A stretch of 47,907 nucleotides of DNA from Flavobacteriales bacterium (GTDB taxonomy: Bacteria; Bacteroidota; Bacteroidia; CAIKAF01), in the NCBI GenBank assembly GCA_026418175.1, contig JAOABX010000020.1, positions 1 to 47,907 of the forward strand, read 5' to 3'. Positions 15,193 to 47,907 of this stretch are shown here, one piece after another. Position 1 is the first letter of the stretch. The number at the start of each line of letters is the position of its first letter. The notes beneath the pieces are model-generated. The model saw only the letters and a program-made list of their open reading frames with translations, searched no databases and had not been told where the DNA came from. Made by a program: the position numbers and the translations under genes.

Positions 15193-15459
15193 TTATTTTG
15201 CTCTTTCAATAATTTCAACTAATCTCCAATTCTTATCTTTACTAAGCGGACGAGTTTCTGCAATTTTCACAGTATCACCAATATTACATTCCTGCTTTTC
15301 ATCGTGAGCTTTAAACTTGGAAGTTTGAGTTATAAACTTTCCATATTTTGGATGCTTCACTTTACGAATAACAGCTACAGTAATGGTTTTCTGCATTTTA
15401 TTGCTAGTAACCACACCTACTTTCTCTTTCCTAGTATTGCGTTTTACTGCTTCAGTCAT
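15193..15459 (-). CDS. rpsQ: 30S ribosomal protein S17
   Basis: 16S-binding OB-fold protein, 88 aa. Motifs: [29 protein letters not shown] and [28 protein letters not shown] three codons upstream (15468) could start it, but the ATG at 15459 fits the family. Unusually it is the first gene of its transcript. rpmC, normally immediately upstream, is 1.2 kb away beyond an inserted plus-strand gene, and rpsQ has its own promoter with an inferred leader of about 44 nt. Confidence 0.97.
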
Positions 15460-15486
15460 GACTTTCAACCTTATTTCAAAATATTA

Positions 15487-15559
15487 TACCCCTAAAAACG
15501 GGCTTGCAAAGGTGCAGCATTTTTTTTAATTATCCAACAGTGCTCTGTTAATTTTTTTA
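15487..15559 (-). promoter_or_regulatory. Promoter/operator module, copy A (rpsQ block)
   Basis: On the minus strand, in order, are: a T/A tract; the dyad AACAG-N4-CTGTT (plus coordinates 15536-15549); a -33 TTG (15535-15537) overlapped by that dyad; a 20-bp spacer; a CACCTTTG -7 box (15507-15514); then GCAAGCCC and a CCC/GGGG hairpin sequence. It is identical to the rpsJ copy at 68 of 73 positions, without gaps. Four of the five differences fall in the 4-base centre of the dyad. It drives rpsQ through rplQ. Confidence 0.85.
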
Positions 15560-15678
15560 TGGAATTTTTGTTTATCCTACATTCTACTCTTGTAAATCAG
15601 GCAATTAAGTATTTAATAAAATTGTATTTTCTTCTATTAGTGAATGTTATAAATCAAGTTAAAAAATGCAGGGGATTG

Positions 15679-15686
15679 TATATTTG
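15679..15686 (+). promoter_or_regulatory. -7 box of the binding-protein gene
   Basis: TATATTTG matches TAnnTTTG and lies 20 nt before the ATG at 15706. No clear TTG is found 20 bp upstream. It points away from the rpsQ promoter, so the two promoters are back to back within about 170 bp. Confidence 0.55.
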
Positions 15687-15705
15687 TCTCCCATAAAAAT
15701 TACAT

Positions 15706-16593
15706 ATGAAAAAACTCCTTGGAAGCTGGCTAACAATTTTATTATTTACAGGCATTTGTGCTGCTCAAGCAACCTCCATATTAGCTCAGCAAAAAGAAGA
15801 AGAGCGAAAAAATGCCGAAAATGAACGAATAAAAGTTTCAAAAAATATTCCGTTGGAAATCTATTATTTTGAGCAGGAACCTTTTGCCTTCTTACAAAAT
15901 AACAAGCCAACCGGAGTAGAAATTGATATTTTAAATGAATTTGCCCAATGGGCACTAACCAGAAAAGGTTTTAAAATGGATATAAAATACACTCCTTTTA
16001 AAAAGTTTGAAGATTTTTACAAATCTGTAGTTACAGGCAATAGTTTTGTTATTGGGGCAGGCACGGTAGCAATCAATGAAGAACGTAAAAATGATGTAAT
16101 TTTTTCTTCTCCTTACTTGAATAATGTATCCATATTAATTTCAAATGGTAGTGTTGAAACAATTTATAAAAAGGAAGAAATATCAGGAAAATGGAAAAAC
16201 ATGAAAGGTATTACTACAAAAGAATCGGTGCATAGCCAGTACATGGAAGAACTTAAGAAAAAGTACTTGCCAGGCTTAACTATAGAAATGGTTAAAACGC
16301 CTATGGAGGTTGCAGATCGAATTGGCCAACAGGCAAATTATATTGGGTATATTGATATTGTAACTTTTTGGCATTACCTTAAAAAATCAAATGTTTTTAT
16401 AAAAATTCAGCGGGCTTTCTCTGTAAATAATGAAAAGTTTGGATTTATAATGCCAAAAAACAGTGAACTTCATGGTCTTATTACAGAATTCTTCGAAAGT
16501 GGATTTGGGTTTACTGCTACAAAGAATTATCGTGATATATTAGAAAAGCATTTAGGTTACGAAGTAATTTCAACCGTCGAAATCAGAGATTAA
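15706..16593 (+). CDS. Orphan periplasmic substrate-binding protein (SBP_bac_3 type) inserted in the S10-spc cluster
   Basis: Predicted secreted binding protein of the family that serves polar amino acid transporters, 295 aa. Residues 1-28 are a signal peptide ending SILAQ, followed by a charged linker (29-45). The two-lobe domain (about 47-290) includes NKPTGVEIDILNEFA, the ligand-carboxylate Arg in INEERKND (R127) and an Asp in YIGYIDIV (D217) placed like the amino-group-binding Asp. No permease, ATPase, sensor kinase or GGDEF gene adjoins it, so its partner is unknown; it could be a stand-alone binding or signalling protein. It sits between the split halves of the ribosomal operon, on the opposite strand, with its own promoter and terminator. 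Confidence 0.8.
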   Translation: MKKLLGSWLTILLFTGICAAQATSILAQQKEEERKNAENERIKVSKNIPLEIYYFEQEPFAFLQNNKPTGVEIDILNEFAQWALTRKGFKMDIKYTPFKKFEDFYKSVVTGNSFVIGAGTVAINEERKNDVIFSSPYLNNVSILISNGSVETIYKKEEISGKWKNMKGITTKESVHSQYMEELKKKYLPGLTIEMVKTPMEVADRIGQQANYIGYIDIVTFWHYLKKSNVFIKIQRAFSVNNEKFGFIMPKNSELHGLITEFFESGFGFTATKNYRDILEKHLGYEVISTVEIRD

Positions 16594-16606
16594 GTTTGAA
16601 TTTGCC

Positions 16607-16647
16607 AAAAATAAAAAACCACACAAATTGTGTGGTTTTTTATTTTT
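16607..16647. terminator. Bidirectional terminator between the binding-protein gene and rpmC
   Basis: This is a perfect 20-bp inverted repeat around one central base, with the core CCACACAA-A-TTGTGTGG and flanks of A and T runs. It terminates both the plus-strand gene and the rpsJ-rpmC transcript. Confidence 0.92.
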
Positions 16648-16663
16648 AAAGCAATTCTTTTTT

Positions 16664-16858
16664 TTAAGCATTCAATTCTCTTCTTCTTTTTTCGGTAAGT
16701 AAACGAGCAATATCTTTGCGATTCTTACGAATCAACATAGGATTTTCCAAAGGAGAAATTCCGTGGTTGATTTTCATTTTGGTAAGCTCATTCTGGAGAT
16801 TTTCAATTTTTTCTACCAGTTCAGCATTGGAAAGTTCTCTTATTTCTGACTGCTTCAT
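16664..16858 (-). CDS. rpmC: 50S ribosomal protein L29
   Basis: 64 aa helical protein by the exit tunnel. It begins MKQSEIRELSNAELVEKIENL and includes the family segment NPMLIRKNRKDIARLLTEKRRREL. A TTG at 16864 could add two residues; the ATG at 16858 is preferred. It is the last gene of the rpsJ transcript here, cut off from its usual partner rpsQ. Confidence 0.96.
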   Translation of the reverse strand: MKQSEIRELSNAELVEKIENLQNELTKMKINHGISPLENPMLIRKNRKDIARLLTEKRRRELNA

Positions 16859-21586: not shown

Positions 21587-21614
21587 ATTTTACTGATAAT
21601 AATCAAATACATTG

Positions 21615-21687
21615 TACCCCCAAAAACGGGCTTGCAAAGGTGCAGCATTTTTTTTAATTATCCAACAGCTTCCTGTTAATTTTTTTA
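21615..21687 (-). promoter_or_regulatory. Promoter/operator module, copy B (rpsJ block)
   Basis: Minus-strand layout as in the rpsQ copy: dyad AACAG-N4-CTGTT (plus coordinates 21664-21677), -33 TTG (21663-21665), 20-bp spacer, CACCTTTG -7 box (21635-21642), then GCAAGCCCG and a T5/G5 stretch able to form a CCC/GGG hairpin. The fusA terminator lies 56 nt upstream, so the S10 block is transcribed separately from the str block. Confidence 0.87.
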
Positions 21688-24815: not shown

Positions 24816-24841
24816 TACTTTAACTCATTTAAATAATATGA

Positions 24842-24910
24842 TACCCCCAAATTTGGGCTTGCAAAGATGAAGTATTTTTTTTTCAAATCCAACAAGGCAT
24901 TGTTAATTTT
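24842..24910 (-). promoter_or_regulatory. Promoter/operator module, copy C (rpsL block)
   Basis: Same architecture and exact spacing as the rpsJ and rpsQ copies. The dyad is AACAA-N4-TTGTT (plus coordinates 24891-24904), the -33 TTG is at 24890-24892, the spacer is 20 bp and the -7 box is CATCTTTG (24862-24869). GCAAGCCC and a perfect CCCAAATTTGGG hairpin follow. Relative to the other two, both arms of the dyad changed symmetrically (G to A and C to T), so the dyad is kept. Confidence 0.82.
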
Positions 24911-24952
24911 TTCCTGTATAGCATTTTAATAAGTGATATCACCTCTAAAATT

Positions 24953-30986: not shown

Positions 30987-31412
30987 ATGAAAAAGTTAGT
31001 TACTACCCTTTCAACTGTTGCACTATTCATCGCAGTAAATGCAATTTCTACGCATGCTCAAAAATCCATGGGGCCTGAATTTTCAGCTACCAAAATGGAG
31101 GTTGATTTTGGAGAAGTTATTCAAAACGGCGACGGAACACGTGAATTTAAGTTTACCAATACCGGATCTGAACCACTACTGATAACTAATGCTACTGGCT
31201 CATGTGGTTGTACAGTGCCTACTTGGCCTAAAGAACCTATTATGCCTGGCAAAACGGGAGTTATTTCTATAAAATATGACACCAGCCGCCTTGGTGCTAT
31301 TAATAAAACTGTAACCATCACGACCAACGAAGTAGAAGGGAAAGATGCAAACGGCAATCCTATATATAAAAATCATGTGATTCAGGTGAAAGGTAATGTA
31401 AAACAACCATAA
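30987..31412 (+). CDS. Secreted DUF1573 domain protein (first of a tandem pair)
   Basis: 141 aa. Residues 1-25 are a signal peptide ending STHAQ. The rest is one DUF1573 Ig-like domain: EVDFGEV, TREFKFTNTGSEPLLITNATGSCGCTVP, GKTGVISIKYDTSR and TVTITTNEVEGKDANGNPIYKNH. Two cysteines in GSCGC may form a disulphide or bind metal. Function in the cell envelope is not known. The next gene is a close paralogue. Confidence 0.85.
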   Translation: MKKLVTTLSTVALFIAVNAISTHAQKSMGPEFSATKMEVDFGEVIQNGDGTREFKFTNTGSEPLLITNATGSCGCTVPTWPKEPIMPGKTGVISIKYDTSRLGAINKTVTITTNEVEGKDANGNPIYKNHVIQVKGNVKQP

Positions 31413-31448: not shown

Positions 31449-31925
31449 ATGAAAAAGGTATTTGTAATTCTCAACATCGTTTCATTGTTTGTAGTAGCTG
31501 GCGTATTTCATTCCTTGGCACAAAAAACAAGTGGCCCTGTTTTTAGTGCTGAAAAAATGGAAGTAAATTTTGGTGAAGTAGAATATAAAGGAGATGGTAC
31601 CCGTGAATTTGTTTTTAAAAATACAGGTAATGAACCTCTTTTAATTACAAATGCCAAAGGCAGCTGTGGTTGTACGGTTCCAGAATGGCCTAAAGAGCCT
31701 ATTCGTCCGGGCCAAACAGGGGTTATTAAAATCAAATATGACACTTCACGTTCAGGTCCCATCAGCAAAACGGTAACCATTACAACCAACGAAGTAGAAG
31801 GAAAAGATGCAAACGGAAATCCTATCTACAAAAACCATACAGTTGCAGTAAAAGGGAATGTAAAACAGGCCCCAGCCAACGATGGCATGCCTACCAAATC
31901 AACCAGCGGTGCTCCCGTTGAATAA
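31449..31925 (+). CDS. Secreted DUF1573 domain protein (second of a tandem pair)
   Basis: 158 aa. Signal peptide 1-25 (ending HSLAQ) and one DUF1573 domain nearly the same as in the gene upstream, from FSAEKMEV through AVKGNVKQ. A 17-residue Pro/Thr/Ser-rich tail is added. DNA identity is also high near the 3' end, so the duplication is recent or kept alike by conversion. It starts 36 nt downstream and ends at a strong terminator, so the pair is one transcript. Confidence 0.85.
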   Translation: MKKVFVILNIVSLFVVAGVFHSLAQKTSGPVFSAEKMEVNFGEVEYKGDGTREFVFKNTGNEPLLITNAKGSCGCTVPEWPKEPIRPGQTGVIKIKYDTSRSGPISKTVTITTNEVEGKDANGNPIYKNHTVAVKGNVKQAPANDGMPTKSTSGAPVE

Positions 31926-46336: not shown

Positions 46337-47907
46337 TTATCGCAATAAGTTTACTTGTCCTATCAATTCTTGATATTGTCCATTATAAAATTTTGCCTCT
46401 ATGCGATAGCTATATACATCTTGTTTTGCTTCTTTTCCTAAATAATATCCATCCCATCCGTGATGAATATTATCTGTTTCATAAACCTTATCGCCCCAGC
46501 GATTAAATATATACATCCGAAACTCCTTGCAACTGCGTGATACTGCTGTAAACTTATCGTTTATCCCATCTCCGTTCGGGCTAAATGTATTGGGAACATA
46601 CAAGGTATATAGCACATTTACTGTACTGCTTGCTACTTGTGTACATCCGTTCTGATCAGCTACCATCAATACATATTCTGTTGTTAACAATGGTGATGCC
46701 GTTGGGTTTAAACAAGTATTGCAATCTAACCAGTCTGCCGGACTCCATAGATAGGTATAACCTCCTGCTCCTCCACTTACATTGGCATTCAAAACCACTT
46801 CTTCTCCAACAAAAATGGTATATTCTTCTTCTGTCTGGATTTCTATTGGGGCAACATCTTGTAATACATATGTGGCTTGAATCATACATTGATTATCATC
46901 TAATACAGTTACTGTATATGTTCCTGCTCCTATTTGTGTTAAATCCTGACTATTAGCTCCCGTATTCCAAAAATATTGATACGGAGTAACCCCTCCGGTT
47001 ACTTGTAAATCAATGTATCCGTTCATTAACCCATGACAAAGTATATTTTTTACGGTTGCATCCAATGCTAATGGATCAGGCTGCATTACTGTAAAATTTA
47101 TCGTAGTCTGGCATGATTGCGCATCTGTTATTACTACTGCATAGTTGCCGGCTGATAACTGATGAATATCCTCATCAATAGAGCCATTATTCCATGCATA
47201 CTGGTATGGTGATGTTCCTCCTACTACATTCAAATCAATGGATCCATTATTCTGTCCATTACACAATGGATTTACTACTATCCCTGAAGCTGATAACGCT
47301 GCAGCCGGTTGACCTACATTCACTACTGCATTGTCCACACAACCGTTATCATCCGTTACCTGGATGTTGTAATTACCAGCTGTTAGGTTGGTGAAGTTCG
47401 GACCTCCCGGATTGCCATTGATGGTCCATGTGTATGGTGCTGTTCCTCCTGTTGTATTGGTACTGATGCTGCCATCGTTCCCGCCAAAGCAGTTCACATC
47501 ATCTACCATCGCAACCGTCAAATCCAACGCTGCGGCCGGTTGGCCTACATTCACTACTGCATTGTCCACACAACCGTTATCATCTGTTACCTGAATGTTG
47601 TAATTGCCGGCTGTTAAGTTAGTGAAGTTCGGACCTCCCGGATTGCCATTGATGGTCCAGGCATACGGTGCTGTTCCTCCTACTGTGTTCGTGTTGATGC
47701 TGCCATCGTTCCCGCCAAAGCAGTTCACATCATCTACCATGGTAACCGTCAAATCCAACGCTGCAGCCGGTTGACCTACATTCACTACAGCATTGTCCAC
47801 ACAGCCGTTATCATCCGTTACCTGAATGTTGTAATTACCGGCTGTTAGGTTGGTGAAGTTCGGGCCTCCCGGATTACCATTGATGGTCCATGTGTATGGT
47901 GCTGTTC
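46337..47907 (-). CDS. T9SS-exported adhesin with SprB-like repeats and gliding-motility-associated C-terminal domain (N-terminus outside window)
   Basis: Partial: the frame stays open through the right edge, so only about 520 C-terminal residues are seen. At least five SprB-like repeats occur, each with CFGGNDGSI/CNGQNNGSID, VGGTAPY.W or GGTSPYQY, and AGNY.IQVTDDNGC motifs. The three outermost are near-identical 77-residue units. A PKD-like domain (VGEEVVLNANVSGGAGGYTYLWSP) follows. The end, VPNTFSPNGDGINDKF...FNRWGDKVYET...YSYRIEAKFYNGQ, is the gliding motility-associated C-terminal (type B T9SS sorting) domain. SprB-type proteins move on the cell surface during gliding in flavobacteria, but such repeats also occur in non-gliding species. 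Confidence 0.92.
   Translation of the reverse strand, partial: TAPYTWTINGNPGGPNFTNLTAGNYNIQVTDDNGCVDNAVVNVGQPAAALDLTVTMVDDVNCFGGNDGSINTNTVGGTAPYAWTINGNPGGPNFTNLTAGNYNIQVTDDNGCVDNAVVNVGQPAAALDLTVAMVDDVNCFGGNDGSISTNTTGGTAPYTWTINGNPGGPNFTNLTAGNYNIQVTDDNGCVDNAVVNVGQPAAALSASGIVVNPLCNGQNNGSIDLNVVGGTSPYQYAWNNGSIDEDIHQLSAGNYAVVITDAQSCQTTINFTVMQPDPLALDATVKNILCHGLMNGYIDLQVTGGVTPYQYFWNTGANSQDLTQIGAGTYTVTVLDDNQCMIQATYVLQDVAPIEIQTEEEYTIFVGEEVVLNANVSGGAGGYTYLWSPADWLDCNTCLNPTASPLLTTEYVLMVADQNGCTQVASSTVNVLYTLYVPNTFSPNGDGINDKFTAVSRSCKEFRMYIFNRWGDKVYETDNIHHGWDGYYLGKEAKQDVYSYRIEAKFYNGQYQELIGQVNLLR
47295..47907 (-). repeat. Near-identical 231-bp tandem DNA repeats in the adhesin gene
   Basis: Units begin at 47295, 47526 and 47757, a constant 231-bp step (77 codons), and the last continues off the window. 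Identity is high at the nucleotide level, including third positions. Confidence 0.93.

Follow-up and report, generated by a model that had tools for sequence, protein, structure and literature searches.

An S10-spc ribosomal operon divided between rpmC and rpsQ in a Flavobacteriales family: a border probably older than the gene inserted in it

Few bacterial gene orders are as conserved as that of the S10-spc cluster, and the way in which such an order can be broken without harm to the cell is usually reconstructed from end states. In E. coli, S10 and spc are separate transcription units with their own promoters; S10 ends there with rpsQ, which puts the border at rpsQ|rplN. The border described here lies one gene earlier, at rpmC|rpsQ, and is an independent invention. 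In Gammaproteobacteria and Bacilli, operon disconnection was described as a two-step process, where most events start with a gene insertion; a few native genes enter the operon border, and a second event separates the pieces (Brandis 2021, PMC8046335). That study takes the borders as given, and its main text mentions neither promoters nor terminators.

Two further systems bear on the locus. Promoters of the Bacteroidota primary sigma factor carry TAnnTTTG at -7 (PMC7366714, PMC9723704), and the ribosomal leader RNAs listed for Bacteroidia and Flavobacteria are those of L13, S4, S15 and S16 (PMC7247131).

We analyzed a window of 47,907 nt, which is the whole of contig C12 of a Bacteroidota-type genome (G000; 2.68 Mb, 99.7% complete). 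As in Brandis 2021, one gene stands at the border, the border is empty in sister genera, and full separation is found in a relative from the same genus (G001, with rpmC on contig C32 and rpsQ on contig C37). Unlike in that study, the border's own origin is visible here, within a unit that is tight in other Bacteroidia. The fragmentation of this very conserved operon is real and specific to the lineage, and it belongs to a known type of gene-order decay but with an earlier step visible.

Organization of the divided locus

The minus strand of the window carries two gene runs: rpsL-rpsG-fusA-rpsJ...rplP-rpmC, with its end at 16664, and rpsQ-rplN-...-rplQ, which extends from 15459 to 5584 (Table 1). 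As the initial annotation had read it, a plus-strand binding-protein gene lies between them. Its 295-aa product has a hydrophobic, signal-peptide-like N-terminus and matches SBP_bac_3 (1.4e-10, 41.5 bits versus a cut-off of 26.4); the nearest solved structures in the PDB, with weak E-values, are glutamine/arginine-type binding proteins (GlnPQ/ArtJ type). The gene is an orphan, with ribosomal genes as its neighbors and no ABC permease or ATPase genes beside it, and nothing points to a connection between its protein and the ribosome. Its -7 box, which had been noted earlier, reads TATATTTG, and no clear -33 TTG stands upstream of that box.

Table 1. Positions of the genes and predicted signals around the rpmC-rpsQ border and of the related start elements in the window
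Feature	Position	Strand	Basis or property
rpsQ (S17), start of the spc-alpha transcription unit	15193..15459	-	PF00366, 1.3e-33
Hairpin GCCC-GTTTTTA-GGGG, predicted start of rpsQ transcript	15489..15503	-	-6.2 kcal/mol
-7 box CACCTTTG of rpsQ promoter (predicted)	15507..15514	-	
-33 TTG of rpsQ promoter	15535..15537	-	Sequence; 20 nt from -7 box
-7 box TATATTTG of inserted gene	15679..15686	+	Direct sequence reading; putative promoter
Inserted gene, orphan periplasmic solute-binding-type protein	15706..16593	+	PF00497 (SBP_bac_3)
Perfect palindromic bidirectional intrinsic terminator (predicted)	16609..16645	both	37 nt, 17-bp arms
rpmC (L29), end of the S10 transcription unit (rpsJ...rpmC)	16664..16858	-	PF00831, 5.2e-19
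Second copy of the start element (promoter, leader hairpin), at rpsJ	21606..21687	-	90% identity to rpsQ copy over 82 nt
Third copy of the start element (promoter, leader hairpin), at rpsL	24833..24914	-	77% identity

Where rpmC and the inserted gene converge, their ends share the perfect palindrome that had been noted as a bidirectional terminator, which folds at -18.5 kcal/mol on each strand and has a GC-containing stem and a T run both ways. The rule-based terminator scan omits it because its T tract lies inside the stem. Within the window there is no tRNA or rRNA anchor; a search against Rfam returned only chance-level matches, with no accepted match (above the gathering score) for the rpsL, rpsJ or rpsQ leaders.

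The predicted rpsQ and rpsJ promoters both have a TAnnTTTG-type -7 box with a -33 TTG within about 17–23 nt, in each case as TTG-N20-CACCTTTG. The boxes CACCTTTG and TATATTTG resemble the Bacteroidota consensus, while the ribosomal-protein copies differ from it by a C in place of the box's first T and by an added +1 hairpin, which the rpsL and rpsJ leaders carry at the same place as the rpsQ leader. The rpsQ and rpsJ promoters are identical at 74 of 82 positions, and their best 73-nt stretch reproduces exactly the 68 matches that had been counted earlier; the third copy, at rpsL, had gone unmentioned and is the one kept in relatives without the split. Throughout the 2.68-Mb genome, CTTTGCA together with a CCC...GGGG hairpin occurs only at rpsL, rpsJ and rpsQ.

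The hairpins of the three start elements lie at 15489–15503, 21617–21631 and 24844–24858. In a comparison of rpsL leaders across Bacteroidia (loci L087–L182), 75% of 65 had a hairpin of -3 kcal/mol or lower located 3–5 nt after the -7 box, where the transcript is predicted to start; shuffled sequences reached this in 11% of cases and other -7 boxes in 21%. In an ungapped Flavobacteriales-type set, 83% were paired and the covariation score was 0.18 versus 0.118 when shuffled (12 of 500 shuffles reach it); two-sided changes are limited to a single pair, a number that shuffles also give, so covariation support is weak. The hairpin is possibly a 5′-end protector of ribosomal-protein mRNA. It resembles the listed leaders (PMC7247131) in being a structured leader of a ribosomal-protein mRNA, although none is listed there for rpsL, rpsJ or rpsQ.

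Elsewhere in the window, a SprB-repeat/CHU_C type IX secretion protein occupies 46337–47907, up to the contig end, and its 231-nt repeats (91–96% identical) are the likely cause of the contig break. Neighboring genes at 31056–31355 and 31518–31817 form a tandem pair (71% identical over 300 nt), and a Schlafen/AlbA_2-domain protein (PF04326; 27287–27931) lies downstream of an SPFH-domain gene, in an AT-rich stretch at 26–27 kb.

The border in related genomes

The distance between the rpmC and rpsQ domains is 37–173 in 94 of the 95 Bacteroidia genomes where both genes were located and 1261 in the window, a gap far outside chance. The intergenic spacer is 0–56 bp in 78 of 80 named Bacteroidia loci, which bears out that the two genes are normally neighbors. 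The exceptions, 162 and 188 bp, are VGMT01000017 (G004) and JANWKT010000014 (G012), both from the window's own family.

We compared 16 genomes of this family in six genera, g1 to g6, as grouped by the database. Genus g1 comprises the window's genome and G001–G003, g2 the six genomes G004–G009, and g5 G012 and G013. Genera g3, g4 and g6 show plain rpmC-rpsQ adjacency without a promoter. In g2 and g5 no gene occupies the spacer, yet a terminator hairpin (-13.6 to -21 kcal/mol) follows rpmC, and an rpsJ/rpsL-like promoter with a +1 hairpin precedes rpsQ; the strict hairpin rule missed the terminators of g5 and of two g2 genomes, which were folded singly instead. A FastTree phylogeny of 12 ribosomal proteins, built from the genes of the ribosomal locus itself, gives (g2,(g5,g1)) with support 1.0, g5 plus g1 with 0.94 and the family with 1.0, and g3, g4 and g6 fall apart from the other three genera with support 0.98. 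Presence or absence of terminator, promoter motif, inserted gene and neighbors can be read directly from these genomes, as can their order on the tree. The distribution places the origin of the terminator and promoter border in the ancestor of g1, g2 and g5; because g2 and g5 have both signals without the gene, the border is read as older than the insertion, and the gene as a later arrival, in g1 only, after g1 and g5 had parted. A presence of the gene at this position across the phylum, which would have spoken for an ancestral arrangement, was not borne out, but the promoter, not the gene, is the older feature.

Relatives of the inserted protein were found in G001, where the gene adjoins rpsQ and the product is 53% identical, and in g2 and g4, at unrelated loci without ribosomal genes nearby. 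The gene was undetected in g3, g5 and g6 among the 16 family genomes, and neither G002 nor G003, whose assemblies are both broken at the relevant place, yielded it or any remnant of it beside rpmC. With a GC content of 0.32, near that of its neighbors, and relatives inside the family, the gene appears indigenous to the family, which is the favored reading from a comparison made within the family, where sister genus g5 lacks it. A foreign origin was set aside on the same two grounds.

The fusA-rpsJ border has also opened. Of 66 named loci, 64 have a spacer of 6–34 bp here, and in g4 and g6 fusA is close to rpsJ and the promoter is absent. In g1 and g2 the spacer measures about 100–200 bp and contains the rpsJ promoter, and G001 has a lipoprotein gene and a terminator upstream of rpsJ. 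In G012 (g5), fusA and rpsJ are about 14 kb apart (L203 3501–17528, G012:C14), and in G010 (g3) the rpsJ promoter is present with rpsL-fusA on another contig. Throughout the family, a start element of its own accompanies each border that has opened, and none has opened without one, in what is a small sample.

Within g1, the neighborhoods mark the rpmC|rpsQ border as a site of repeated change. The window has the order rpmC, inserted gene, rpsQ. Contig C37 of G001 instead begins within the 3′ end of 23S rRNA and continues with 5S rRNA, the oppositely oriented binding-protein gene, rpsQ and the remaining spc-alpha genes; the end of the rRNA operon spans L063 1–491, and spc-alpha stands directly behind it. 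On contig C32, G001 rpmC is followed by a terminator and a convergent dppA-type peptide-binding lipoprotein gene, which two mevalonate-pathway-type genes (named from their translations) precede; in all, the contig extends for 16.5 kb of unrelated sequence beyond rpmC. The convergent dppA neighbor is common to G001 and G002, while the dppA relative of G000 and G003 lies elsewhere, behind a murQ-like gene. In G003, a terminator again stands after rpmC, and then come about 1 kb of gene-free sequence with a dispersed repeat and a TolB-like gene; this GC-rich repeat (L084 5600–5890, G003:C201) is listed at at least 40 places in G003, at a few in G000 and at none in G001 or G002. The window and the G001/G002 arrangements, with a gene between the pieces and with the pieces apart, look like two stages inside one genus.

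Proposed history and its alternatives

The explanation that very probably fits these observations best is that the border came first, as a terminator and a copied promoter, and that gene insertion and rearrangement followed. It draws on promoter activity, termination, co-regulation through the shared start element and a mode of gene movement that we infer from sequence. In most Bacteroidia the tightly packed rpsL-rpsG-fusA-rpsJ...rpmC-rpsQ genes would form one transcript from rpsL. The rpsL start element (-33 TTG, -7 box and +1 hairpin) would have been copied stepwise before rpsJ and before rpsQ, and an intrinsic terminator gained after rpmC. The pieces would then have become self-sufficient, with spc-alpha independent of read-through from rpsL, so that the rpmC|rpsQ border would be free to open; selection for its closure would lapse, and indigenous genes, repeats or rearrangement ends could settle there. 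In g1, an indigenous binding-protein gene would have been placed at the border on the opposite strand, and further rearrangement in sister species would have moved the S10 and spc pieces apart.

An alternative, unlikely though the best surviving one, holds that S10 and spc had already separated in the g1 ancestor, that a rearrangement put the binding-protein gene beside rpsQ, and that the window's order is a later rejoining. Three of the four g1 genomes have no visible adjacency of rpmC and this gene, and the neighbor of rpmC is variously the inserted gene, a repeat-rich region or dppA, as such a history would produce. However, the pieces would have to have met again in G000 at exactly the two ends that had parted, which adds a coincidence, and the G003 contig that carries rpsQ starts 203 bases before it with a stretch that is 86% identical, almost to the contig end, to the window's spacer between the inserted gene and rpsQ. 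Of the two possible states of the g1 ancestor, the window's order is the simpler reading of these broken assemblies, rather than separated pieces.

It is improbable that the junction of rpmC with the inserted gene is an assembly error and that S10 and spc lie apart in the window's species as they do in G001. That junction is seen in one assembly, and such draft genomes can be chimeric; yet the perfect bidirectional terminator of both convergent genes sits exactly at the junction, no repeat lies there, and the adjacency of the inserted gene and rpsQ is independently present in G001, and thus in two assemblies.

Still less probable is a placement for function, in which divergent promoters couple expression of the inserted gene to ribosome synthesis. 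The divergent arrangement with rpsQ is kept in G000 and G001 despite an identity of only 53% between the two proteins, but the g2 and g4 relatives lie away from ribosomal genes and the gene went undetected in the broken G002 and G003 assemblies.

The promoter copies bear on the remaining alternative. The rpsJ and rpsQ promoters are more alike within G000 (identity 0.90) than either is to its counterpart in G001 (0.82 for rpsJ, 0.85 for rpsQ). Because rpsQ promoters stand at the same place in g2 and g5, this identity more likely stems from homogenization between both sites in the line of G000 and G003 than from recent copying, and TTTTTAGGGGTA, which is common to the rpsQ leaders of g1, of G005 and G007 in g2, and of g5, points to one old rpsQ promoter. 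Dating from a promoter tree was dropped, as the 72-nt sequences are too short and the rpsJ and rpsQ copies of G000 and G003 are intermixed.

The initial annotation had proposed that the insertion cut off rpsQ and the spc-alpha genes downstream, which a promoter duplication then rescued; the recent-looking similarity of the window's two promoters agrees with this order of events, but it is the least probable of all, since the gene-less g5 and g2 already carry promoter and terminator, the shared leader motif indicates an old promoter, the similarity may be later homogenization, and the gene would be needed in the ancestor of g1, g2 and g5 and then cleanly lost twice. What stands of that proposal is a gene placed within the lineage and a promoter of the rpsL/rpsJ type; the causal order is reversed. 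The insertion would have landed in an existing border, so nothing was cut off and there was nothing to rescue.

Returning to the border-first history, we tentatively consider a broader version, in which promoter, -33 element and 5′ hairpin would make up one copyable start module of Bacteroidia ribosomal operons, leaving fragments self-sufficient and co-regulated and the dispersal of S10 and spc nearly neutral. Copies of the start element within one genome may be homogenized. In this one family, successive states can be seen side by side: closed in g4 and g6, with element and terminator in g2 and g5, with a gene in the gap in the window, and apart in G001 and G002. They suggest that acquiring its own promoter was the enabling step for the spc-alpha piece, and that the insertion was the consequence.
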